From: Desulfobacula sp.
GTDB lineage: Bacteria > Desulfobacterota > Desulfobacteria > Desulfobacterales > Desulfobacteraceae
Assembly: GCA_013792075.1 (NCBI GenBank)
Contig: VMSR01000034.1
Span: 1 to 34,554, forward strand
Reading direction: 5' to 3'
DNA: 34,554 bases
In this document: positions 15,299 to 31,897 of the stretch, piece by piece
How positions within the stretch are numbered: the first letter of the stretch is position 1
Layout of the letters: the number at the start of each line of letters is the position of its first letter
Made by a program: the position numbers and the translations under genes
Notes under the pieces: generated by a model
Database searches by the model: none
Told to the model about the DNA's origin: nothing
Seen by the model: the letters and a program-made list of their open reading frames with translations, nothing else

Positions 15299-16364
15299 GG
15301 CTTGTTTTTTCCTCAAAAAGGGTTGTCCTGTTTCTGCCGTTCTGTTTTGATGCATATAGGGCATGGTCTGCCCTTCCAATGCAGTCGGTCATGGTTCCAA
15401 TGTCAGAAGGGTTGTCAAAATGGGCCACACCAAAGGACATGGTGATGTTCAAAAACTGATCCCCAAGGGTTTTACCGGATCTGTCCACCTGGACAAATTT
15501 GGCGGCCGCTATTTTTTTCCGAATCCGTTCCACAACCCGAACCGCTTCATTGCCGTCTGTTTCATCCAGGATGAATAAAAACTCTTCACCGCCGTACCGG
15601 CCTGCCATATCAAAATATTCCCGCATGGACTCGGAAAGAATCTTCCCCACTTGTTTTAAAACCAGATCCCCCTGGATATGGCCGTAGGTATCATTGACCC
15701 GTTTAAAAAAATCAATATCCCCCATGACAATGCTGGCCGATATCCCCGGTTTCCGTTCAAGCCGTTTTAAAAGCTTTTCCACTTCTTGTTTTATTTTTCG
15801 GGAATTATAAAGCCCTGTAAGGCCGTCATATTCCGCCTGCTGTTTAAATTGGGTTTTTAAAAGGAGGGTGCTCAAAAAATTGCACATGATCTCCACGGTG
15901 CTGACCTCATAATCCTTAACCGAGGCTTCTTTGCCGAAAAAATCCCCCCCGAACAGATAGGCCCCGCCGCAATCCTGGGGAAAAAAAACATACCCCATGA
16001 CATCGCACCCCATGCCCGGAACATTGATATGGGAAACCTTTTTGTTTAAAAAAGCATTGACCTCGTTGACATAGCGTTTGTCCCGGGCATCCAGGAACAA
16101 CCGCAGCTTTCGTCCTTCCTCCAGATCCAGCCGGGAATTTTTGGGATCCAGCACCTTCACCACCTCCAGAATCAGGCGGTCGTTAATAATATTGGTCACC
16201 TTGTACAGCACGCTGATATCAAACATCAGTGTTTTCTGGATAATCTCAAGGGGATAATTAAAGCATTCATCATTGCCGGCATCTGCATCCAGGTCCTTTA
16301 AAAAAACAGATAATTTCCCCAGCCGTTTTAAAATGGTTTTTGCATCGGATTCATGCTTTTTCAT
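15255..16364 (-). CDS. Soluble diguanylate cyclase with N-terminal GAF-like domain
   Basis: The 369-residue protein has no signal peptide or membrane helix. Residues 1 to about 175 look like a GAF-type sensor domain. Residues about 185-345 are a GGDEF domain with an intact GGEEF active-site loop, DGLTGLYNSRKI at its start and MGDIDFFKRVND for Mg/GTP binding. The inhibitory-site position reads EYFD rather than RxxD, so product feedback may be absent. Its ATG overlaps the cbiD stop (ATGA at 16361-16364), so it is translated together with a cobalamin gene. Confidence 0.9.
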   Translation of the reverse strand: MKKHESDAKTILKRLGKLSVFLKDLDADAGNDECFNYPLEIIQKTLMFDISVLYKVTNIINDRLILEVVKVLDPKNSRLDLEEGRKLRLFLDARDKRYVNEVNAFLNKKVSHINVPGMGCDVMGYVFFPQDCGGAYLFGGDFFGKEASVKDYEVSTVEIMCNFLSTLLLKTQFKQQAEYDGLTGLYNSRKIKQEVEKLLKRLERKPGISASIVMGDIDFFKRVNDTYGHIQGDLVLKQVGKILSESMREYFDMAGRYGGEEFLFILDETDGNEAVRVVERIRKKIAAAKFVQVDRSGKTLGDQFLNITMSFGVAHFDNPSDIGTMTDCIGRADHALYASKQNGRNRTTLFEEKTSHADISHRGDQNPVQ

Positions 16365-17467
16365 GGAAGTTCCTTAGGGTTTTGAGAATCAAAGGCGATT
16401 TGCCCGTCAAAAGCCAGGATCACCACCCGGATACAAATTTTACCCCTGGCAAACCCTGCGGCATTTTCCATGATTTTTTTTACCACAAAGCCCAGCAGTC
16501 CGGGATATGCCGGATAAATATAGGAAAATGCGTGGCGGGCGGTATTGGCCTGGCTTATGTCGCAAAAAAGGTGCTCATTTCCTGTGATCTCCCGGGCCCA
16601 TTGGGCCAGGGTTTTCAGGGTCAGTTCAGATTTTGCCGCATGGGTGTGTTCAAATCCCAGGGACATTTTAACGGCCTTGCCGAAAAAAACAGTATAGATA
16701 ATTTCCCGGACAGCCTTTTTTGTGAGGGCCTCATCAATGGCTGCCTTGAAAAAGTCCCCTGTCTGTACAAAGGCTTCCTCAAAAAAGGCGGGAAAAAGTC
16801 CCATGGCATACCGTTCACTCCGTCTTCCCGTGGTAAAGACCAGGGTGTCAATGCCCCGGGCTGCAGCAACGGAGATGCTGGACCGGATGGTGGCAATATA
16901 GGCGTCATGGGACAAGGGTTTTACAATGCCGGTGGTTCCGAGAATGGAGATGCCCCCGACAATTCCCAGGCGGGCATTCAGGGTTTTTCGGGCAAGAATC
17001 TCTCCCCGGGGAACAAAAACTTCAACGATCACCTGTTTGCCGGGCAGGGAGGTTTGGGCAAACACCTCTTTTACCACATTCAGAATCATTTGCCGGGGAC
17101 CCGAATTGATGGCCGGTTCTCCCACCCCGACTTCGAGTCCGGGCTTGGTAACCCTTCCCACTCCTTTGCCGCCCTTAATAATAAGCTTTAGCTCTTTGGC
17201 GGGTGACAGCGTCACTTTGGCTCCGATCTCGGCCTTGTGGGTGATGTCCGGGTCATCCCCGGCATCTTTTATCACGGAGGCCTTGCAGCAGGTGTCTGAA
17301 AGCCGCAGGACTTCCTTTATCGCAATTGTTTTTTTTTCACCTGTTAAAAATTCAATGTAAACAACAACAGGTGTTTGGGAAGTGACAAGGGCCAGCAGAG
17401 CCGCCTTTACCGAAGCGGCTGCTGCCGCCCCCGTGGTGAATCCCTGTTTAAGCACTTTGGAGGCCAT
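16361..17467 (-). CDS. cbiD: Cobalt-precorrin-5B C1-methyltransferase CbiD
   Basis: The 368-residue protein matches CbiD: the N-terminal GFTTGAAAAASVKAAL, the glycine-rich GGKGVGRVTKPGLEVGVGEPAINSGPR region, and GGISILGTTGIVKP. It methylates C1 of the corrin ring in the anaerobic cobalamin pathway. The ATG has AAGGAG 6 nt upstream and overlaps the end of cbiA by 20 bp. It is the third gene of cbiC-cbiA-cbiD; other cbi genes are not in the window. Length is normal for the family. Confidence 0.93.
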   Translation of the reverse strand: MASKVLKQGFTTGAAAAASVKAALLALVTSQTPVVVYIEFLTGEKKTIAIKEVLRLSDTCCKASVIKDAGDDPDITHKAEIGAKVTLSPAKELKLIIKGGKGVGRVTKPGLEVGVGEPAINSGPRQMILNVVKEVFAQTSLPGKQVIVEVFVPRGEILARKTLNARLGIVGGISILGTTGIVKPLSHDAYIATIRSSISVAAARGIDTLVFTTGRRSERYAMGLFPAFFEEAFVQTGDFFKAAIDEALTKKAVREIIYTVFFGKAVKMSLGFEHTHAAKSELTLKTLAQWAREITGNEHLFCDISQANTARHAFSYIYPAYPGLLGFVVKKIMENAAGFARGKICIRVVILAFDGQIAFDSQNPKELP

Positions 17468-19010
17468 GGTGCTCCTTGCCAGATTTTATGGGTTGTTCAG
17501 GTCTTGATGTTTGCCGGGCCTGTCTGAAGCTGGCACAGTGTTCCACAAAAACGGGCGCACAATTGGGGTTGCTGGCAAAATGAACATGGAGATAGGACCC
17601 GAGGGTCTGATTTTTTTGGTATCCTTTGAGCAAAATATCCTGGCCTGCCCGTGAGGTGACCTGGTAGACATTTTTGATTGTCAAATCCCGGGCGCTTTTG
17701 TCCTTTTGGGTGTCCGTATCCTTTTGGGCATTCGTGTCCACCAGAGAAGAATAATGAAATTCATGCCCCCGGATCACATCCCCTTTTCTGCCGATAAGGG
17801 TATCAGCGGTCAGGGTTATCTCCCTGTATCCCAGGGACCGAAGGCGCCGGGACATTTGAACGCAAAAGTCAAAACAACCGGTCATGGCATATTGCGCTTG
17901 TCTGTCCATGCCCGATACCTGGCCGCACAAATACATGAACCCCCCGCACTCGCCGTATATGGGCATACCGGCCCGGCTGAATTCCCTGATCTGGGCCAGA
18001 AGCGTGGTCTTGGCGGACAAGTGTTCGGCAAAGACCTCGGGGTAGCCCCCGCCCAGATAAATCCCGTCAATCCCAGGGGGCAATTGCGTGTCTGTTAAAG
18101 GGGAAAAGGTGACAAGCCTTGCTCCGGCTTTTTTTAAGCTGTCAAGATTGTCCTGGTAATAGAAACAAAAGGCCTTGTCCCTTGCCACGGCAATGACCGG
18201 GCCCTGTTTTTCCATTGTTTTATTTTTGATGGATGCCGGTAAATCTGCCGGAACTTTCCTGGGTTCAATCACGGGCAGGCGCTTGATCAATGCATCCATG
18301 TCCAAGTGCTCCTCGACCATGGAGACCAGAAGGGAGATTACCCGGGGAGACATCACAAGTTCATCGGCCGTCATCAGTCCCAGGTGTCGCTCGGGCATAA
18401 CGATTTCTTCATTCCTGGGCATAAAGCCCAGGCAGGGGGTGGTACAATTTTGTTCAACGGCATCCCTGAGGTATTCATAATGCCGCCGGCTGCCGGTCTG
18501 GCTGAAAATCACCCCGGCCAGAGTAAGATCCGGGTCAAAAGTTTCAAACCCTTTGACAATGGCTGCCGCACTCCTGGCCTTGCCCTTTGCGCTGACGATG
18601 AGCAAAACCGGAAGGTCCAGCCATTTGGCCATCTGGGCCGTGGATCCTGTTTCTGATGTGCTGTCATACCCGTCAAACAGCCCCATGACCCCCTCCACCA
18701 CGGCCAGGTCGCAACCCTGGGAATTTTTGGCAAACAAGCTTTGGTTGTAGGCTTTTGTCAGCATCCAGGAGTCAAGGTTAACGCTTGTTCGCCCGGCAAT
18801 TTTGGTGTGGTGACCGGGATCAATAAAGTCCGGACCCACCTTGAACGGTGCCACTTGAATTCCCTTTGACCGCAAATAGGCCAGGATGGCCAGACTGATG
18901 GTGGTTTTTCCGGTTCCACTGCCCGTGGCAGCAATGACAAAGCCTTTAATGGGAACCTCCCGTAAACGGTTAAGAATTGTTTGTCTGGTAAGCCATGATA
19001 GCCAGAGCAT
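17448..19010 (-). CDS. cbiA: Cobyrinate a,c-diamide synthase CbiA
   Basis: The enzyme amidates the a and c carboxylates of cobyrinate using glutamine and ATP. Visible are the N-terminal P-loop IAATGSGTGKTT, VGPDFIDPGHH, the glutamine-amidotransferase nucleophile in YGECGGFMYL and the C-terminal GYREITL and GHEFHYS motifs. The only conventional in-frame start is ATG 19010 (520 aa), which has no ribosome-binding site and adds about 20 residues. An ATT at 18950 has a perfect GGAGG 5 nt upstream, and homologues start about there, so a rare ATT start (500 aa) is quite possible. A low-complexity Asp/Lys/Thr insert (about residues 435-450, QKDTDTQKDK) is unusual. Confidence 0.93.
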   Translation of the reverse strand: MLWLSWLTRQTILNRLREVPIKGFVIAATGSGTGKTTISLAILAYLRSKGIQVAPFKVGPDFIDPGHHTKIAGRTSVNLDSWMLTKAYNQSLFAKNSQGCDLAVVEGVMGLFDGYDSTSETGSTAQMAKWLDLPVLLIVSAKGKARSAAAIVKGFETFDPDLTLAGVIFSQTGSRRHYEYLRDAVEQNCTTPCLGFMPRNEEIVMPERHLGLMTADELVMSPRVISLLVSMVEEHLDMDALIKRLPVIEPRKVPADLPASIKNKTMEKQGPVIAVARDKAFCFYYQDNLDSLKKAGARLVTFSPLTDTQLPPGIDGIYLGGGYPEVFAEHLSAKTTLLAQIREFSRAGMPIYGECGGFMYLCGQVSGMDRQAQYAMTGCFDFCVQMSRRLRSLGYREITLTADTLIGRKGDVIRGHEFHYSSLVDTNAQKDTDTQKDKSARDLTIKNVYQVTSRAGQDILLKGYQKNQTLGSYLHVHFASNPNCAPVFVEHCASFRQARQTSRPEQPIKSGKEHHGLQSA

Positions 19011-19593
19011 TTACAATACTGGCCGCAATATTGGATCCGCCCTTTCTCCCCTTGTTGGTAATATGGGGAAAATCAAGACCCATGAGTTCATCCTTGGACT
19101 CTGCTGCATTAACAAACCCCACGGGAAATCCGATGATCAAAGCGGGATTTGCCTTTTCTTCCCGGATCAGGGCAATAAGTCTCAAAAGGGCTGTGGGCGC
19201 ATTTCCCACCACATAAATCCCGCCTTCCATCTCCTTTGCCGCCATATCCACGGCAGCCAGGGCACGGGTGGTCCCGGCCTTTTTTCCCTTTTCTGCCACG
19301 GCTTCATCGGCAATAAGACACCTGACCTGCCCGCCAAAGGCATGAACCTCTTTTTTTCGAATTCCCACCCGGGCCATGTTGGTGTCCGTGATGATGTTTT
19401 TTCCCTGTAAGATCGCCTGGATCCCCCGGTCAATCGCCCCTTTGGAAAACCGGACGCTCTTGATATAGTCAAAATCGGCAGAGGTGTGGATCATCCGTCT
19501 GACCACGGGCCATTCCTGTTCATTAAATCCATGATCCCCGGCTTCTTCTTCTATGATCAGAAAGCTCTTGTCTTCTATTTCCTGTGGTTTCAC
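18970..19593 (-). CDS. cbiC: Precorrin-8X methylmutase CbiC
   Basis: This enzyme moves the C11 methyl group to C12 to form cobyrinate in the anaerobic cobalamin route. The 207-residue reading has the catalytic His in VVRRMIHTSADFDY, the ITDTNMARVGI stretch and the C-terminal GFPVGFVNAAESK. The GTG at 19593 is chosen as start because AAGG lies about 9 nt upstream and homologues begin near there; the frame is open to 19671. It is the first gene of the minus-strand cbiC-cbiA-cbiD unit and overlaps the longest cbiA frame by 41 bp. No cobalamin riboswitch was recognised in the 170 bp upstream. Confidence 0.9.
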   Translation of the reverse strand: MKPQEIEDKSFLIIEEEAGDHGFNEQEWPVVRRMIHTSADFDYIKSVRFSKGAIDRGIQAILQGKNIITDTNMARVGIRKKEVHAFGGQVRCLIADEAVAEKGKKAGTTRALAAVDMAAKEMEGGIYVVGNAPTALLRLIALIREEKANPALIIGFPVGFVNAAESKDELMGLDFPHITNKGRKGGSNIAASIVNALAIMAYQTNNS

Positions 19594-19637
19594 TCTGGTC
19601 ACCTTCTGGTTATCGGGTTTGTATATAAAAAATATAG

Positions 19638-19661
19638 GGGCAAAATACCATTTTTTTGCCC
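19638..19661. other. Hairpin in the cbiC/alaC divergent region
   Basis: gggcaaaa (19638-19645) pairs perfectly with ttttgccc (19654-19661). The region around it (19594-19763) is AT-rich and must hold the promoters of both divergent genes, but no clear -35/-10 pair could be assigned. It could be an operator or part of a short leader. Confidence 0.35.
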
Positions 19662-19763
19662 ACCTTTGCAACCGGCTATAAAATTTACTTTTCTTCTGGG
19701 AATAAAATCTGATATGGTTTTAACCTTATATTATTTATTTTACTTTTTATAAGGAGTTTGGTT

Positions 19764-24281: not shown

Positions 24282-26315
24282 TTGAATCAAGCGAACAATA
24301 ACCAGACACCTATTGAAACGAATGGGACTCTATTTATGGCTAAAGTAATTTTCGGCGCATGGGATGGTAAGGTCATCGACAATCGAAACAGACAAATATT
24401 TGAAATCGAGGAACACCCAGAATTCAACGACTTTGATGAATTTAATACGGGAAACCCCATCAAGGCTTTTTTCGGGGGACACGGATTTTTTATCTTTGAA
24501 AAAAAGGTGAATCTTTTAGATGCCCTGCTTCATTATATGGAACGGGTGGCCAGAGAATCCTGCGGTAAATGCACCCCTTGCAGGGTCGGTACCCAGATCA
24601 TTAAACGCAAACTTGAAGACCTGGTAAACCGGAAAGGCAGTCCCAAAGACCTGGATGAAATTGAAATCATCGCAGAACAGATAAAAAGCACCTCCCTGTG
24701 CGGGCTGGGACAAACGGCAACCGTAGCCCTCCTTGGGATGTTCCAATTCTTCAGGGAGGCAATCCTGTCAGAACTTTCAACCCCCATCCCCCTGAGGCAA
24801 CCCTGTGAAACCTATGTGTCGGCACCTTGTATAGAGGCCTGCCCTTCAAAGGTGGATGTTCCCAAGTACATTGACTACATCAAGGACGGTAAGTTTACCC
24901 ACTCTCTGGGGGTAATTTTACAAAAATATCCCATGGCCGCCACCTGCGGCCGGGTATGTGTGAGGTTTTGTGAGATGGCCTGCCGGCGCACCCAGGTGGA
25001 CGAAGCTGTCGGGATAAAGGTACTTAAGCGATTTGTGGCTGACCATGAGCAAGGGGTGATCAATGAATGGTTTTCAGCCTATGCCCCCGAAGACCCAAAG
25101 GATCCGCATCTGCAAGTAGCCGTTGTGGGTACCGGGCCGGCCGGCATCGCCGCGGCCTATCATTTGCTGCTCAAGGGATATCCGGTCGATATATTTGAGG
25201 CCAAGTCCATTCCGGGCGGCATGGCGGCCACGGGTATCCCCGAATATCGGCTTCCAAAAGCGGTGCTTGCCAAAGAGGTTTCCATCATCGAAACCTTGGG
25301 GGGCCGGATTTTTTACAATCAGAAAATGGGCCGGGACTTCACCCTTAATGATCTTGTGGAAAGAGGATACGCCTCTGTATTCCTGGGTATCGGGACCCAT
25401 AAGGGCAAAACGATGCAGGTGGCCTATGAAGACCCTGAAATACAAGGCTATGACTTTGGGGTGGATTTTCTGCTTCGCATCAACCACGACTATATTGACC
25501 GGGGTATTCCCATGGAACTTGGTGAAACAATGGTGGTGGTGGGAGGGGGAAACGTGGCCATGGACTGTGCCAGATCAGCCCTGCGAATGAACGTCAAACA
25601 AGTTCATTTGATCTATCGAAGGAGTGAGAAGGAAATGCCCGCCGACCATGAAGAGATTGAAGCAGCCAAAAAAGAAGGCGTTATCTTTCATTTCCTGACC
25701 AACCCCACCAAGATCCTGGTGAAGGATGGCAGGATACGGGGGATTGAACTCATAAAAATGGCGTTGGGAAATCCGGATGAGAGCGGAAGGAGCAGCGTGG
25801 TTCCTGTTGCCGAAAGTGAATTTACCATCGATACCGACCATATCATCCCGGCCATCGGCCAGCAGGTCGAGCTTGGGTTTGTAACGCCAAAAGACGGGGT
25901 TGAACTCAACACCTGGGGAACCATTCGGGTGAACCCGGCTTCGTTAATTACCACCCGGAAAGGGGTGTTTGCAGGCGGCGACTGTGTCAGCGGGCCGGCC
26001 ACCCTGGTCCAGGCCATGGCCCAGGGAGAAAAAGCGGCCAGAAGTATTGACGACTACCTGACCCTGGGCCGCATCCGGTTTCAACCCAAAGAAAGGATGT
26101 CCCAGCTGGTGGCTGATCTTCAGCCCATGATCGCAAAGGGCATTAATATCCCCGTAAAACATGAATACCGGGTGAAGATAAAGGAGCTTGATCCCCTGAT
26201 CCGAAAAAAGATTTTTGAAGAGGTTGAAAAACCCATTTCCGTTGACCAGGCATATACCGAAGCCCAGCGTTGCATGCGGTGTTACCGTGTCTATTCTGCC
26301 ATTACTGAACACTAG
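24282..26315 (+). CDS. Fusion of NuoF-type 4Fe-4S domain with GltD-like FAD/NAD(P) oxidoreductase (hydrogenase partner subunit)
   Basis: In this 677-residue protein, residues about 70-170 match the C-terminal 4Fe-4S domain of NuoF/HydB (C94-G-K-C97-T-P-C100 and C140 in LCGLG). Residues about 180-275 are the GltD-type Cys-rich N-domain (two 4Fe-4S clusters expected). The rest is the GltD/NfnB-like flavoprotein: FAD motif G283-T-G-P-A-G288 and second dinucleotide motif G421-G-G-N424. Cys-x-x-Cys (RCMRCY) lies near the C terminus. The FMN/NADH domain of true NuoF is missing. It probably passes electrons between NAD(P)H and the [FeFe] hydrogenase encoded 23 bp downstream. The start is TTG 24282 (AGGA 3 nt upstream) or possibly ATG 24336. 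Confidence 0.88.
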   Translation: MNQANNNQTPIETNGTLFMAKVIFGAWDGKVIDNRNRQIFEIEEHPEFNDFDEFNTGNPIKAFFGGHGFFIFEKKVNLLDALLHYMERVARESCGKCTPCRVGTQIIKRKLEDLVNRKGSPKDLDEIEIIAEQIKSTSLCGLGQTATVALLGMFQFFREAILSELSTPIPLRQPCETYVSAPCIEACPSKVDVPKYIDYIKDGKFTHSLGVILQKYPMAATCGRVCVRFCEMACRRTQVDEAVGIKVLKRFVADHEQGVINEWFSAYAPEDPKDPHLQVAVVGTGPAGIAAAYHLLLKGYPVDIFEAKSIPGGMAATGIPEYRLPKAVLAKEVSIIETLGGRIFYNQKMGRDFTLNDLVERGYASVFLGIGTHKGKTMQVAYEDPEIQGYDFGVDFLLRINHDYIDRGIPMELGETMVVVGGGNVAMDCARSALRMNVKQVHLIYRRSEKEMPADHEEIEAAKKEGVIFHFLTNPTKILVKDGRIRGIELIKMALGNPDESGRSSVVPVAESEFTIDTDHIIPAIGQQVELGFVTPKDGVELNTWGTIRVNPASLITTRKGVFAGGDCVSGPATLVQAMAQGEKAARSIDDYLTLGRIRFQPKERMSQLVADLQPMIAKGINIPVKHEYRVKIKELDPLIRKKIFEEVEKPISVDQAYTEAQRCMRCYRVYSAITEH

Positions 26316-26338
26316 GAAACCATAGGGAGGCTCTGATA

Positions 26339-28138
26339 ATGATAGGAAGTATAAATGGCAAACAGGTCGAATTCAATAAAAACCAGGTCGTACTCACGGT
26401 TGCAAAGGCAAACAACCACTTCATTCCCACTTTGTGCGAAATGGCGGACCTGAATCATACCCCCGGCACCTGCAGGGTTTGCCTGGTCGATATACAGAAG
26501 AAAAACGATTCCCAACATCGTATCGTCACCGCCTGCACCACCCCCATGGAAGAGGGCATGAGCGTCCTGACCAGGACACCGAAAGTCCGGCAGATGCAAC
26601 GGCTCCAGGTGGAACTGCTCATTGCCGACCATAACCAGGACTGTGCCGCCTGCATCCGTCACGGAAACTGTGAACTTCAGGATGTGGCCCAGTTTGTGGG
26701 ACTGAAACAAACCCGTTATACCTACCCCCAGTTTTACCAGCGACGCAGCAGAGATGATTCGTCTCCGGCTGTTGTGCGGGATATGAGCAAGTGCATTCGC
26801 TGTTTTCGCTGTGTTGCGGTGTGCCGGGACATTCAGGGAATCGATGCACTGGTTATCACGGAAAAAGGGCTTGAAACAGAAATCAGTGTAAGGGATCATC
26901 TGCCCCTGAACCAATCGGACTGTGTTTCATGCGGCCAATGTATCCTGGTCTGTCCGGTGGGAGCCCTGGCCGAGAAAAATGACATTGAAGCAGCCCTGGA
27001 CCTGCTTTTCGATCCCGAGCTTGTCACGGTGGTGCAGTTTGCCCCGGCGATAAGAACGGCCATTGGTGAGGAATTCAACATGACAAAGGGTGAAAATCTT
27101 GAAGGAAAGATCATCACTGCACTCAAACAGCTTGGGGCCGATGTGGTTCTGGATACCAATTTCACCGCAGATCTGGTGATTATGGAAGAGGGGACCGAAT
27201 TATTGGAGCGCATTAAAAACAAGGGGGTTCTTCCCATGTTTACCTCCTGCTGCCCCGGATGGGTGAACTTTGTCGAGAAAAATTATCCGGATATGCGTGA
27301 GCATATTTCCACAACCCGCTCGCCCCAGCAAGCCCTTGGATCAATGGCCAAAACCTACCTGGCCCAAAAGATGGGTCTTGATCCCAGCCGCATCCGGGTG
27401 ATCTCCATCATGCCATGCACGGCCAAAAAAGGAGAAGCAAACCGCCCGGAATTTAAAACAAAGGGCTTTCTGGACGTGGATGTTGTCCTCACCACCCGGG
27501 AACTTGCACGATTGTTGAAACGGGAGGGAATGGACCTTGCTGATCTGCCAGATTCCGGCTTTGACAGCCCATGGATGTCTGACTACTCAGGTGCTGCCGT
27601 GATCTTTGGAAACACGGGCGGTGTCATGGAAGCGGCCGTCAGAACCGTTTATAAAGTTGCGACCGGAAAAGAACTGGCAACGGTAGAATACACCGACCTG
27701 AGAGGGGAGGAAAACTTTCGGGAGGCAGTGGTTGATCTGGGCCCGGATCTGGGTTCCAGAAAGCTGGCAGTTGTGCACACCCTTAAAGCGGCCCGCAGGC
27801 TGCTGGAATCAATAAAAACCGATGGGAATACCTATGACTTTGTGGAGGTAATGGCCTGTCCGGGAGGATGTGCCGGAGGCGGCGGTCAGCCAAGAAGCAA
27901 ACACAGCTACCAGGGCACCTGGCAGGAGCGGAAAAAAGGCCTGTACACCATTGATCAGCATCGCCCCATTCGCCAGTCACACAATAATCCAATGATTACA
28001 GTTCTTTATGAAGATTTTTTGGGCGCCCCCATGGGAGAAACCAGCCACCATCTTCTCCATACAACATACAGGGACAGGCGGCACACCATTAAACACACCA
28101 TGGATGAAATATGGAAAGAGATCGAACAGAGAACCTGA
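26339..28138 (+). CDS. hydA: [FeFe] hydrogenase, multi-cluster catalytic subunit
   Basis: The 599-residue enzyme interconverts protons and H2. The N terminus holds a 2Fe-2S cluster (C33, C45, C48, C66), then the His-Cys3 4Fe-4S site (H98, C102, C105, C111) and a two-4Fe-4S ferredoxin domain (C152/155/158/162 and C195/198/201/205). The H-cluster motifs are complete: L1 TSCCPGW with C304 (proton relay) and C305, L2 MPCTAKKGE with C360, and L3 with C507 and C511 in MACPGGCAGGGGQP. A small-subunit-like tail (HHLLHTTYRDR) is fused at the C terminus. No signal peptide is present, so it is cytoplasmic. It is co-transcribed with the flavoprotein upstream and the maturases downstream. Confidence 0.96.
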   Translation: MIGSINGKQVEFNKNQVVLTVAKANNHFIPTLCEMADLNHTPGTCRVCLVDIQKKNDSQHRIVTACTTPMEEGMSVLTRTPKVRQMQRLQVELLIADHNQDCAACIRHGNCELQDVAQFVGLKQTRYTYPQFYQRRSRDDSSPAVVRDMSKCIRCFRCVAVCRDIQGIDALVITEKGLETEISVRDHLPLNQSDCVSCGQCILVCPVGALAEKNDIEAALDLLFDPELVTVVQFAPAIRTAIGEEFNMTKGENLEGKIITALKQLGADVVLDTNFTADLVIMEEGTELLERIKNKGVLPMFTSCCPGWVNFVEKNYPDMREHISTTRSPQQALGSMAKTYLAQKMGLDPSRIRVISIMPCTAKKGEANRPEFKTKGFLDVDVVLTTRELARLLKREGMDLADLPDSGFDSPWMSDYSGAAVIFGNTGGVMEAAVRTVYKVATGKELATVEYTDLRGEENFREAVVDLGPDLGSRKLAVVHTLKAARRLLESIKTDGNTYDFVEVMACPGGCAGGGGQPRSKHSYQGTWQERKKGLYTIDQHRPIRQSHNNPMITVLYEDFLGAPMGETSHHLLHTTYRDRRHTIKHTMDEIWKEIEQRT

Positions 28139-28202: not shown

Positions 28203-29603
28203 ATGGCAAAGCTGCCTTTAGAAGAATACCGGACATTTATCGATTGTGAGGCGTTAAAAAAACTGGCATCCCGACCGGAAGCCGGGGAAGAAAAAATCAG
28301 TGAGGTTCTGTCCCGGGCGGCAGCACTCAACGGTCTGAATGTTGAGGATGCGGCCGCATTGCTGTCGGTCCGAAAACCCGATCAGATCCAACGGATTATG
28401 GACGCGGCGGAACAGGCAAAACAAACGATTTACGGCAAGCGTCTGGTCATGTTTGCCCCCCTGTACACCAGTAATTATTGCATCAATAACTGCCTTTATT
28501 GCGGGTTCAGGAAGGATAACAAAAAACTAAAAAGACGAAAATTAACCCTACAAGAAATTATAGCCGAGACAAGGGCTCTCTTGAAAGAGGGGCATAAGCG
28601 CCTTCTGGTGCTCAATGGGGAAACCTGTGACAATGACCTTGAAGACTTAAAGCAGGCCTTGGATGCCATTTACAAGGTAAGGGAAAACGGCCAGGGCATC
28701 CGCCGGGTGAATGTAGAGATCGCACCTTTGACGGTCGACCAGTTCCGGGAGTTGAAAACCTGTAACATCGGCACCTATATCTGCTTTCAGGAAACCTATG
28801 ACCCGCATCTTTATGGTAGATATCACCCCAGCGGCCCAAAATCAGATTACACGAACCGTTTGTTTGTCATGCACCGGGCCATGGAAGGCGGAATAAACGA
28901 TGTCGGTATAGGCGCCCTTTTCGGCCTGGCAGATCATCGGTTTGAGACCCTGGCTCTTCTCAAACATGCAGAAGAACTGGAACACTTGTTTCATTGCGGC
29001 CCCCATACGGTCAGTGTGCCCAGAATTGAACCGGCCCAGGGCGCCCCTTTGGCAGAAAAGGTTCCGTTCCCGGTGGATGACAATGCCTTTCGCACCATTA
29101 TTGCGGTCATCCGGTTGTGCCTTCCCTACACCGGCATCATCCTTTCCACCCGGGAGACAGCTGAACTCAGGCACGAATTGTTCCGGTACGGGGTCAGCCA
29201 GGTGTCCGCCGGGTCCAGGACCGCCATAGGCGGATATACCCAGGCCAAGACAGAGGAGGGTCAGTTTTCTTTGGGAGATTTGCGGTCCATGGAAACGGTC
29301 ATCAATGATATGGTGGACATGGGATTCATTCCTTCCTTTTGCACGGGCTGTTACCGCCGGGGGCGGGTGGGCAAGGATTTCATGGATCTTGCCAAACCTG
29401 GATTGATCAAATCCTATTGCCATCCCAACGGGGTGGTCTCCTTTGCCGAATATTTGACGGATTTTGCATCGCCCCAAACCCGGGAAAATGGATTTTCTCT
29501 GATTGAACGATTGGTGGCACAAGAGGAAAATCTTGCCATTCAATCCGGCATACAGAACTCTTTAGACCGGATTGCCTCAGGCGAACGGGATATTTATCTA
29601 TAG
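28203..29603 (+). CDS. hydG: [FeFe] hydrogenase maturase HydG (radical SAM tyrosine lyase)
   Basis: The 466-residue HydG cleaves tyrosine to give the CO and CN- ligands of the H-cluster, delivered as an Fe(CO)2CN unit. The radical-SAM cluster motif is C93-x3-C97-x2-C100 (CINNCLYC). The C-terminal auxiliary cluster has C380-x2-C383-x22-C406 with CTGCYRRGRVGKDFM, which separates HydG from ThiH. AAGGAAGG lies 4 nt before the ATG. It is the first of three maturase genes in a row. Confidence 0.96.
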   Translation: MAKLPLEEYRTFIDCEALKKLASRPEAGEEKISEVLSRAAALNGLNVEDAAALLSVRKPDQIQRIMDAAEQAKQTIYGKRLVMFAPLYTSNYCINNCLYCGFRKDNKKLKRRKLTLQEIIAETRALLKEGHKRLLVLNGETCDNDLEDLKQALDAIYKVRENGQGIRRVNVEIAPLTVDQFRELKTCNIGTYICFQETYDPHLYGRYHPSGPKSDYTNRLFVMHRAMEGGINDVGIGALFGLADHRFETLALLKHAEELEHLFHCGPHTVSVPRIEPAQGAPLAEKVPFPVDDNAFRTIIAVIRLCLPYTGIILSTRETAELRHELFRYGVSQVSAGSRTAIGGYTQAKTEEGQFSLGDLRSMETVINDMVDMGFIPSFCTGCYRRGRVGKDFMDLAKPGLIKSYCHPNGVVSFAEYLTDFASPQTRENGFSLIERLVAQEENLAIQSGIQNSLDRIASGERDIYL

Positions 29604-29624
29604 ACACTGGAAAGGATGATGTTA

Positions 29625-30689
29625 ATGGGGACCGGAAAGGATGAAAAAAACGCAACCCAGGTGGTCCCGCTTTCTCCAGACCAGATTATGGATCTTTTTT
29701 ACCATGCCTCTACCCGGGAATTGATGGACATGGGAAATCTTGCTTGTTGCCAGGTGCATGGCAGGGATATTCTATTAAGGGGATTGATAGAATTCACCAA
29801 TGTCTGCACCAATGACTGCCTCTATTGCGGTATCCGGAACAGCAACCACAAGGCAAACCGATATCGCATGGAAGCGTCCATGATCCTTAAAGCCTTACAA
29901 ACAGGGTATGACCGGGGAATTCGAACCTTTGTTCTCCAGGGAGGAGAAGATCCGGTTTACACAATCGATAGAATCTGCGGACTCGTAAGACAGATAAAAG
30001 ACCTGGGAAAAAAGGATGCGGCCGTCACCCTAAGTTGCGGAATTCGAAGCCGGGAAGCCTATTTTAAGCTGGCACAAGCCGGTGCAGACCGCTATCTTTT
30101 ACGGTTTGAAACAGCAGATCCCAAGCTTCATTTTTTATTGCGAAACATTGGCCTGAACGACCGGCTCAAGGCCTTGGAAGATATCCGGGCCGCAGGATTC
30201 CAGGTCGGCAGCGGGTATATGGTGGGATTGCCCGGTGAGACCCGGGAAACCCGGTTGGAAAATATTCTGCTTTGCCAGCGCCTGGAACTGGATATGGTCG
30301 GTCTGGGACCTTTTATCCCCCATCCGGACACCCCGTTGAAACACTCTTTTCAACATCCGTTGGAACACACCCTCCGGAGCGTTGCCCTGGTCCGCCTGGC
30401 GCTTCCCAAAGCCCATATTCCGGCGACAACCGCAGCCGGCAGTCTTATGCCCGACGGACGCGAGCAGATGATTGCCGCCGGTGCCAATGTGCTGATGCCC
30501 AACCTGACCCAGGACAAATTTAAACAAAAGTATCTATTGTATCCTGGCAAAATCTGTCTGAATGAAAAGGGCATTCAGGATATTGAAAGCCTGAACCAAC
30601 GGATAAGACCCTTGAACCGAAACTTAAGTTTTGCAAGGGGCGATGCCCTCTATCACCTGACAAATATGGATACAGGAGAACCCAAATGA
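29625..30689 (+). CDS. hydE: [FeFe] hydrogenase maturase HydE (radical SAM)
   Basis: HydE is a radical-SAM enzyme that acts after HydG in making the diiron precursor with its dithiomethylamine bridge. The cluster motif is CTNDCLYC (C-x3-C-x2-C), followed by FVLQGGEDP and the TIM-barrel motifs FETADP, GYMVGLPGET and LGPFIPHPDTP. Three nearby ATG codons exist (29616, 29619, 29625); 29625 (354 aa) has AAGGA at the best spacing. Its stop overlaps the hydF start (ATGA), so translation is coupled. Confidence 0.95.
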   Translation: MGTGKDEKNATQVVPLSPDQIMDLFYHASTRELMDMGNLACCQVHGRDILLRGLIEFTNVCTNDCLYCGIRNSNHKANRYRMEASMILKALQTGYDRGIRTFVLQGGEDPVYTIDRICGLVRQIKDLGKKDAAVTLSCGIRSREAYFKLAQAGADRYLLRFETADPKLHFLLRNIGLNDRLKALEDIRAAGFQVGSGYMVGLPGETRETRLENILLCQRLELDMVGLGPFIPHPDTPLKHSFQHPLEHTLRSVALVRLALPKAHIPATTAAGSLMPDGREQMIAAGANVLMPNLTQDKFKQKYLLYPGKICLNEKGIQDIESLNQRIRPLNRNLSFARGDALYHLTNMDTGEPK

Positions 30690-31897
30690 CCTCCACCCCC
30701 CTGGCAGAATTAACCACCATTGTGATTGCAGGCATCCGGAACGCCGGAAAATCCTCACTCATGAACAATCTTTTTAAAAAAAATGTGGCCATTGTCTCTG
30801 ATATCCCCGGAACCACCACCGACCCTGTGACCCGAAAAATAGAACTGGGAAAATTGGGAATGTGCGCGGTCACGGACACAGCCGGCCTGGACGATACAGG
30901 TGTATTGGGAGATCTGAGGGTCCAAAAATCAAAAGAAAGGCTGATCGCAGCCGATTTGCTCCTTTTTGCTTCTCCTGTCAACCTGGCCCCCCTTCCCCAG
31001 GAACAGGCATTTTTAGGCTGGCTTAAAGCCCGGAAGATTCCCTGGATCGGTGTTGCCACCTTTTCAGATCAATTGCCCCATCCTGACAAGACAGGATTTT
31101 TCCCAGGTAACCTGTTTATCTCCCAGGATAATTTTAATCCGGAAAGCGCCCTGAAGCTGGTTGAAAGGATGGAGCAGCTTCACCAGAAAATCAACAGGGA
31201 AATCACCCCGGTAGAAGGCCTGGTAAAGGAACAGGATCTGGTCTTGCTGGTCACGCCCATTGATTTGTCGGCTCCGGCAGGAAGGCTGATCCTTCCCCAG
31301 GTGGAGACGATTCGGGACCTGTTGGACCGGGATTGTGCTGCCCTTATTGTTAAAGAAAGAGAATTGTCTTATTTTTACAAAGCCTTAACAATCCGTCCAT
31401 CCCTTGTGATTACAGACAGTCAGGCATTTCATAAGGTGGCGGCAGACTTGCCCGAAGACCAGGCCCTTACCTCTTTTTCTCTTTTGTTCGCAAGGAAAAA
31501 AGGAGACCCTGCCTATTTTATTAAAAGCCTTAAGGCCTTGAAAAATTTTCCGGAAACCGGGCGGGTTCTGGTCATGGAAGCCTGCTCCCACCATTGTCAG
31601 GCCGAAGATCTGGGCCGGGTGAAAATACCGAGGCTTTTTCGTCAGATGGTGGGGTCCCGGGTGGAATTTGTCCACAGCCGCCAGGCGCCAGAACACCCCA
31701 AAGAGTGGGATTTAATCATTCACTGCGGGGGATGCATGCTCACACAAAAAGCCATGGAGGCAAGGCTTGCCGTTTTTCGGGAAAACCGGGTTCCCGTTCT
31801 CAACTATGGTCTTTTTCTGGCCTGGGCCCATGGGCTGCTGCCCAGGGCCCTGGAGCCTTTTTTCGGTCTTGCTGACCTCTACACCCGGTCAGGGTAA
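30686..31897 (+). CDS. hydF: [FeFe] hydrogenase maturation GTPase HydF
   Basis: The 403-residue HydF is the GTPase scaffold on which the 2Fe subcluster is finished and handed to apo-HydA. The N-terminal GTPase has the P-loop G16-I-R-N-A-G-K22-S23, the switch PGTTTDPV and DTAGLDDTG. The C-terminal cluster-binding domain carries CSHHC (300-304) and H346-C347-G-G-C350, the expected HxnHCxxC ligands. It is the last gene of the operon and ends only 5 bp from the convergent gyrB stop. Confidence 0.95.
   Translation: MTSTPLAELTTIVIAGIRNAGKSSLMNNLFKKNVAIVSDIPGTTTDPVTRKIELGKLGMCAVTDTAGLDDTGVLGDLRVQKSKERLIAADLLLFASPVNLAPLPQEQAFLGWLKARKIPWIGVATFSDQLPHPDKTGFFPGNLFISQDNFNPESALKLVERMEQLHQKINREITPVEGLVKEQDLVLLVTPIDLSAPAGRLILPQVETIRDLLDRDCAALIVKERELSYFYKALTIRPSLVITDSQAFHKVAADLPEDQALTSFSLLFARKKGDPAYFIKSLKALKNFPETGRVLVMEACSHHCQAEDLGRVKIPRLFRQMVGSRVEFVHSRQAPEHPKEWDLIIHCGGCMLTQKAMEARLAVFRENRVPVLNYGLFLAWAHGLLPRALEPFFGLADLYTRSG

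Follow-up and report, generated by a model that had tools for sequence, protein, structure and literature searches.

A two-gene [FeFe] hydrogenase pairing HydA with an FMN-less NuoF/GltD-type protein in Desulfobacula sp., a possible H2:NADP+ oxidoreductase

In this study, we asked how the catalytic subunit of an [FeFe] hydrogenase (HydA) from Desulfobacula sp. might exchange electrons with the cell when no NuoE/NuoF partners are encoded alongside it. The gene lies in a window of 34,554 nucleotides (assembly GCA_013792075.1, contig VMSR01000034.1, positions 1 to 34,554 of the forward strand), directly behind a gene whose product joins the Fe-S domain of NuoF to a GltD-type unit. The host is a sulfate-reducer-like bacterium, and its hydrogen enzyme is a compact one of two genes. 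The preliminary description of this DNA had proposed such a two-gene enzyme, and it is borne out by the Pfam domains of both proteins, the intact H-cluster motifs of HydA and the spacing of 23 bp between the genes, as read in the window sequence. Domains, gene pairing and predicted cluster ligands are conserved, and no dedicated HydB/HydC was found in the assembly. We lean towards the view that the pair is a soluble, two-subunit, non-bifurcating and reversible H2:NADP+ oxidoreductase.

The fusion protein has three Pfam domains (residue numbers are counted throughout from a TTG codon at 24282): NADH_4Fe-4S at 81-161 (86.5 bits), Fer4_20 at 175-256 (77.6 bits) and Pyr_redox_2 at 278-582 (93.9 bits). 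Because the Pfam domain scores range from 78 to 301 bits, chance similarity can be dismissed. No Pfam match to the flavin mononucleotide (FMN) domain Complex1_51K was obtained in this protein; as a control, a longer NuoF-GltD fusion (locus L108) matched it with 161.6 bits. The absence of the FMN domain and of neighbouring NuoE/NuoF partners, claimed in the preliminary description, thus agrees with the Pfam scan, the open reading frames (ORFs) of the window and the assembly searches described below. By sequence, the Fe-S domain matches PDB entries that for the most part are NuoF or HydB subunits from enzymes of the bifurcating type; the fold search, which barely probed this N-terminal domain, listed no match over it. 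Among solved structures, the GltD part is closest to NfnABC and StnC (fold-search Z 31.9-33.7 over 420-435 residues), and the fold search overall returned StnC, NfnABC and NfnL chains (Z 28.6-33.7).

By homology to StnC and NfnB, the proximal [4Fe-4S] cluster is predicted to be held by C187, C226, C230 and K249, and the distal one by C183, C234, C664 and C667. Some of these roles are assigned after the ligands of dihydropyrimidine dehydrogenase. The eight Cys and Lys positions were compared, together with C94, C97, C100 and C140 of the NuoF-type domain, across window-type proteins, other FMN-less relatives of about 660 residues and NuoF-GltD fusions. All eleven Cys are invariant in the three sets (13/13, 23/23 and 19/19), as is R323, which aligns with StnC R239. 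The position of K249 is Lys in all 13 other window-type and all 23 other 660-residue proteins, and Lys (14/19) or His (5/19) in the NuoF-GltD fusions.

Among the ligands of the proximal cluster of StnC is K170, where NfnB has Glu; the flavin adenine dinucleotide (FAD) of StnC does not bifurcate but serves NADPH, and R239 is the counterpart of NfnB R201 (PMC10482914). A GltD FAD serving NADPH without bifurcation was also predicted for a Thermococcus sibiricus enzyme by its authors (PMC9304861). The second Rossmann motif of the fusion protein, GGGNVA, fits the GxGxxA pattern, which was taken to be of the NADP(H) type when StnC was described (PMC7483475).

HydA contains Fer2_4, NADH-G_4Fe-4S_3, Fer4, Fe_hyd_lg_C (300.9 bits) and Fe_hyd_SSU domains, and its H-cluster motifs TSCCPGW, MPCTAKK and MACPGGCAGGGGQP are intact. 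With the L1-L3 motifs, the Fe_hyd_lg_C and SSU domains and a TIGR02512 score of 509.6 bits (cut-off 405.95), it falls within the [FeFe] group A in the broad sense. The accessory Cys residues and His98 are kept in the 14 window-type HydAs. The L1 motif TSCCPGW occupies residues 302-308, and its second Cys is Cys in 12/14 window-type HydAs and in 20/22 HydAs of the type with NuoF plus a ferredoxin-like tail; the same position is Ser in all 24 HydAs of the NuoF-GltD fusion type and all 17 of the short-NuoF type. We take one of the two Cys residues of this motif to be a proton relay.

The gene pair is genuine, intact and conserved; it was seldom encountered among the genomes sampled, yet recurs in three bacterial phyla. 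Few candidates were scored per genome (3 or 4 in the order, phylum and Spirochaetota samples, up to 6 in Bdellovibrionota), so that all presence counts are lower bounds. The window-type GltD gene (69-100% identity) is present in at least 8 of 291 genomes of the order. The same eight genomes contain a HydA of the window kind (at least 66% identity), among at least 21 with any HydA match (E <= 1e-70), and the two genes are adjacent in all eight. One of these copies (G257) is broken: at L095 (G257:C1), both genes are disrupted by stops or frameshifts, through recent loss or an assembly error. Outside the order, two copies occur in one genome (G629; L106 and L107), at least one of 395 sampled from the phylum, and the pair was found in at least 2 of 296 Spirochaetota genomes (L004, L005) and at least 1 of 191 Bdellovibrionota genomes (L007). 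Three named metagenome-assembled genomes of Desulfobacterium/Desulfobacula also have the pair (L002, L003, L006), with an interrupted GltD frame in L006. The pair is retained while the flanking genes vary among loci, and the intergenic gaps are 6-55 bp in all 13 copies measured, including the window. The two proteins diverge in step from copy to copy, with r=0.96 for their pairwise distances in a mirror test of 13 copies, which left out L005 (cut HydA), L006 and L095.

In the mechanism that we propose, electrons would pass from NADPH to the FAD of the GltD unit, then to the Lys-ligated [4Fe-4S] cluster and the distal [4Fe-4S] cluster, and onward through the NuoF-type [4Fe-4S] cluster and the NuoG-like Fe-S chain of HydA to the H-cluster. 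The path would be a single reversible chain with no built-in bifurcation. The NuoF Fe-S domain would have been kept, without the FMN/NADH domain and NuoE, because it is through this domain that electrons enter or leave HydA at its NuoG-like end. We infer that the two proteins form an active, soluble complex with a preference for NADP, and favour this simple NADPH scheme over bifurcation as the better supported.

Several points weigh against this scheme. The enzymes studied that bear on the Lys/Glu argument are few, and the HydDB text on group A2, discussed below, guesses NAD as the cofactor. Among NCBIfam models, HydA scores highest with 'NADH-dependent, group A6' (752.8 bits, slightly short of the cut-off of 765). 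The AlphaFold model of the fusion protein has low confidence near the clusters (mean pLDDT, the predicted local distance difference test, 66.5; 215 of 659 residues below 50); its good regions are limited to the FAD/NADPH domains and a portion of the Fe-S helical domain. The mirror correlation reflects shared ancestry in part. In the available sequence, no HydA lies on the same strand within 600 bp of any of the 23 other 660-residue relatives. Finally, an ORF for an 82-residue NuoE-like [2Fe-2S] ferredoxin lies about 0.45 kb upstream of the pair in L004 (7298-7546, thioredoxin-like; PF01257, 28 bits, cut-off 24.8), and this copy may have a third subunit. At L004, a 148-residue ORF without a Pfam match also precedes the pair.

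The same two-subunit enzyme might be specific for NAD(H), as the HydDB text and the name of the nearest NCBIfam model would have it; we consider this unlikely, since the closest solved relatives bind NADP(H) and the GGGNVA and YRR motifs of the fusion protein are as in them. The preliminary description had suggested a coupling of H2 to NAD(P)(H), and perhaps ferredoxin, by a flavin site related to Nfn. The first part is likely; the ferredoxin part was not supported. For Nfn-like bifurcation, in which the GltD FAD would split electrons between HydA and ferredoxin, or confurcate them, speak the fold shared with NfnB and the series R323, StnC R239 and NfnB R201. We nevertheless judge it unlikely, as the proximal cluster has Lys249 instead of Glu, a single Fe-S branch is visible and no NfnA adjoins the fusion gene among the window ORFs. 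The host has four PF10418 (NfnA/PyrK-like) genes; one of them, on contig C104, directly precedes its own NfnB-like gene, whose ligand motif LERF has Glu where the fusion protein has K249. An Nfn-like partner for the fusion protein was rejected on the grounds of Lys249 and this pairing of the C104 NfnA with a Glu-type NfnB.

Three arrangements were observed upstream of HydA: the canonical NuoE and NuoF, the latter in some cases ending in a ferredoxin-like tail; NuoE and a NuoF-GltD fusion of 1013-1085 residues; and the FeS-GltD protein alone, as in the window. The NuoF-GltD fusion lies upstream of 24 HydAs, 23 of which have NuoE in the available sequence (L108, L158-L160, L162-L166, L168, L170-L173, L177, L179, L181, L183, L184 and L186-L189). 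In these fusions, GltD occupies the place of the ferredoxin-binding tail of HydB; this suggests a ferredoxin-free H2/NADH/NADPH enzyme, perhaps one that divides electrons between NAD+ and NADP+. Of 19 aligned fusions, 18 have RGRGGxGF, all have the N3 Cys residues and at most 13 have the complete N-terminal [2Fe-2S] Cys set. Operons of the short-NuoF type and the fusion type stand in tandem at L165, L166, L168 and L177, in four genomes of family f125.

Phylogenetic trees were built for 93 of 142 HydA ORFs, with the L029-L036 copies and near-identical rows dropped, and for GltD, where 133 ORFs were reduced to 99 (incomplete or duplicate ones out) and then to 70 (29 with short-flank cuts out). 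L005 was left out of the HydA tree, L006 out of the GltD tree and L095 out of both. Both are quick searches with several long branches, supported by the Shimodaira-Hasegawa-like approximate likelihood-ratio test (SH-aLRT) only. The 14 window-type HydAs form one clade (SH-aLRT 100), apart from those of canonical NuoE+NuoF+HydA loci and those with NuoE and the NuoF-GltD fusion. The placement of this clade is not firm (88 with five NuoF-type rows, 86 above). Two labels were corrected in the GltD tree: L147 had been counted as window type because its locus is cut (the fusion is visible in the longer L187), and L025, the window itself, had been marked solitary. After these corrections, the window type forms one clade (99) that joins 23 FMN-less 660-residue relatives (98), and fusion-type GltD groups apart from it. 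An origin of the window type by plain deletion from a NuoF-GltD fusion was rejected on this grouping; in the HydA tree, which also bears on it, the clade is not firmly placed.

The FMN-less FeS-GltD family of about 650 residues (L037-L058, L096-L105) is encoded in numerous genomes of the order, and for most members no partner gene is apparent. As its 660-residue members lack a HydA neighbour, the cassette is not hydrogenase-specific. One member (L103) lies beside an 808-residue molybdopterin oxidoreductase, formate-dehydrogenase-like and with the same NuoG-like N-terminus, as would be expected of a plug-in module; this single case fits a role of the NuoF Fe-S domain as the contact to NuoG-like ends. 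No NuoG-like partner was seen among the neighbours scanned at six other 660-residue loci, and the neighbour at L100 is an Fe-S/CCG protein. These solitary relatives are also what would favour two separate enzymes, the GltD protein acting alone as an NADPH:acceptor oxidoreductase and HydA working with ferredoxin. We regard this as improbable, given that the two genes lie side by side wherever the order sample yielded the pair, and that the HydA of the pair forms a distinct clade.

The host assembly (5.3 Mb, 98.9% complete) has one HydA match and two NADH_4Fe-4S matches, and NuoE-type matches occur only on contig C63. The gene order there, assigned mostly by eye, is AOR (confirmed by Pfam), ferredoxin, Hdr-like, MvhD, NuoE, NuoF, HoxU-like, FdhD, EtfB and EtfA, which reads as a Bam-like locus of the AOR/Hdr type with its own NuoG-like subunit. 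No HydB/HydC pair dedicated to HydA was found in the assembly. That HydA borrows NuoE/NuoF from elsewhere as an ordinary bifurcating HydABC, as its best PDB matches (HydA subunits of HydABC) and the NuoE/NuoF/HoxU-like set might suggest, is very improbable, since that set belongs to the C63 locus and the same contact domain is kept in the neighbour of HydA; it was rejected, the C63 pair being the sole other one found. The preliminary description named as its refutation a HydA lying firmly in group A3 with NuoE/NuoF encoded elsewhere as its partners. In the parts of this that the analysis covered, no such case emerged: the best PDB matches of the window HydA are HydABC subunits and the rows nearest in the tree are NuoF-type (support 88, placement not firm), but it belongs to a clade of its own, and the other NuoE/NuoF pair found belongs to the C63 locus. 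NiFe hydrogenases are also present in the host; the matches at G000:C273 and C118 contain an in-frame TGA, possibly selenocysteine.

Group A2 of HydDB, described there as 'glutamate synthase-linked, putative' with a GltD-like neighbour and no determined role (PMC5037454), is probably the home of the pair by gene neighbourhood, as a GltD-like gene adjoins HydA; the same source holds group A not to be divisible by sequence alone. A2 was still named among the classes needing characterisation in 2025 (PMC12578642), and the 'A2' of PMC9431212 is CpI, another meaning. Unlike in the name of the group, the window pair was not seen to be linked to glutamate synthase, and its partner carries the NuoF Fe-S domain; the A2 text does not separate the two GltD arrangements. 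No GltB was recognised among the window ORFs, of which only eight products went through Pfam; no genome-wide search for it was made.

The pair shares with HydABC (FeFe-Bfu, group A3) the NuoG-like N-terminus of HydA and the NuoF-type [4Fe-4S] contact domain, but has GltD in place of NuoE, the FMN domain and the ferredoxin domain; no NuoE-like ORF adjoins HydA in the window. With the StnABC/Nfn-Bfu transhydrogenases (PMC10482914, PMC9304861), it shares the GltD unit, the proximal Lys, the C-terminal CxxC and the nearest fold, but its GltD is fused to the NuoF Fe-S domain, not to NuoG, and its partner bears an H-cluster. No StnA/StnB (NuoE/NuoF) bifurcating core is encoded with the fusion gene, judging from the window ORFs and the assembly profile searches. 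NfnAB has the same GltD fold and two cluster sites, but differs in Glu for Lys, in the presence of NfnA and in a CxxC at the opposite end. The loci with NuoE and a NuoF-GltD fusion have the same succession of NuoF Fe-S domain, GltD and HydA, but retain NuoE and the FMN domain. The open-access titles and abstract openings searched gave no pointer to the two-gene form, subscription papers lying mostly outside the search. PMC9304861 contains none of the terms GltD, fusion or fused, so a NuoF-GltD fusion is not treated there by those names.

Taken more broadly, the pair may represent a minimal, ferredoxin-independent class of [FeFe] hydrogenase, in which HydA and a NuoF-FeS/GltD cassette that lacks FMN and has a lysine-ligated cluster make up a two-protein reversible H2/NADPH enzyme, and a relative of the cassette is plugged into a formate-dehydrogenase-like enzyme; we put this forward tentatively, with belief and doubt nearly in balance. 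If true, it would provide an H2-NADPH link separate from bifurcating complexes and a compact enzyme able to make NADPH from H2. It would also supply a simple and specific mechanism for the putative [FeFe] hydrogenases linked to GltD, one that two proteins and three maturases suffice to test, and pinpoint the part of NuoF needed for contact with HydA. With NADPH near -370 mV and H2 at -340 mV at 250 Pa (PMC6288185), a hand calculation places the reaction near equilibrium, with reversal at roughly 3 kPa H2; such an enzyme could therefore act as a redox valve.

The features of the locus are listed in Table 1. The fusion gene probably starts at ATG 24336 rather than TTG 24282, because the first start codon of the ORF falls at the same residue in 8 of 13 other copies.

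Table 1 Features of the hydrogenase locus and their positions in the window
Feature	Position	Strand	Basis or remark
NuoF-FeS/GltD fusion	24336..26315	+	659 aa from ATG; ORF from TTG 24282, 677 aa
NADH_4Fe-4S (N3/B1-like) cluster domain	24522..24764	+	Pfam; Cys 94, 97, 100, 140
Fer4_20, two predicted [4Fe-4S] sites	24804..25049	+	Pfam and alignment
Lys249 codon	25026..25028	+	Aligned with StnC Lys170 (Glu in NfnB); residue hand-counted on the alignment
FAD and NAD(P)H Rossmann domains (Pyr_redox_2)	25113..26027	+	Pfam, fold match
C-terminal CxxC (C664, C667)	26271..26282	+	Position as in StnC; N-terminal in NfnB
Ribosome-binding-site-like AGGGAGG ahead of hydA	26324..26330	+	Direct reading
[FeFe] hydrogenase catalytic subunit HydA	26339..28138	+	599 aa
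NuoG-like N-terminal Fe-S part of HydA (residues 4-213)	26348..26977	+	Domain matches
H-cluster domain of HydA	27026..27883	+	Sequence match
HydG maturase	28203..29603	+	TIGR03955, 487 bits
HydE maturase	29616..30689	+	TIGR03956, 335.1 bits
HydF maturation GTPase	30686..31897	+	TIGR03918, 448.6 bits

HydG, HydE and HydF follow HydA on the same strand, and a full maturation set is therefore present within the gene run. Maturases also lie near the pair at L091-L094, with 36-44% identity to those of the window (28203-31897). As this is far below the identity of the hydrogenase pair itself (about 70%), the maturases seem to have joined the pair independently. Elsewhere in the window (16361-19671), three minus-strand genes resemble, as judged by eye, cobalamin biosynthesis genes of the CbiD, CbiA and CbiC types.

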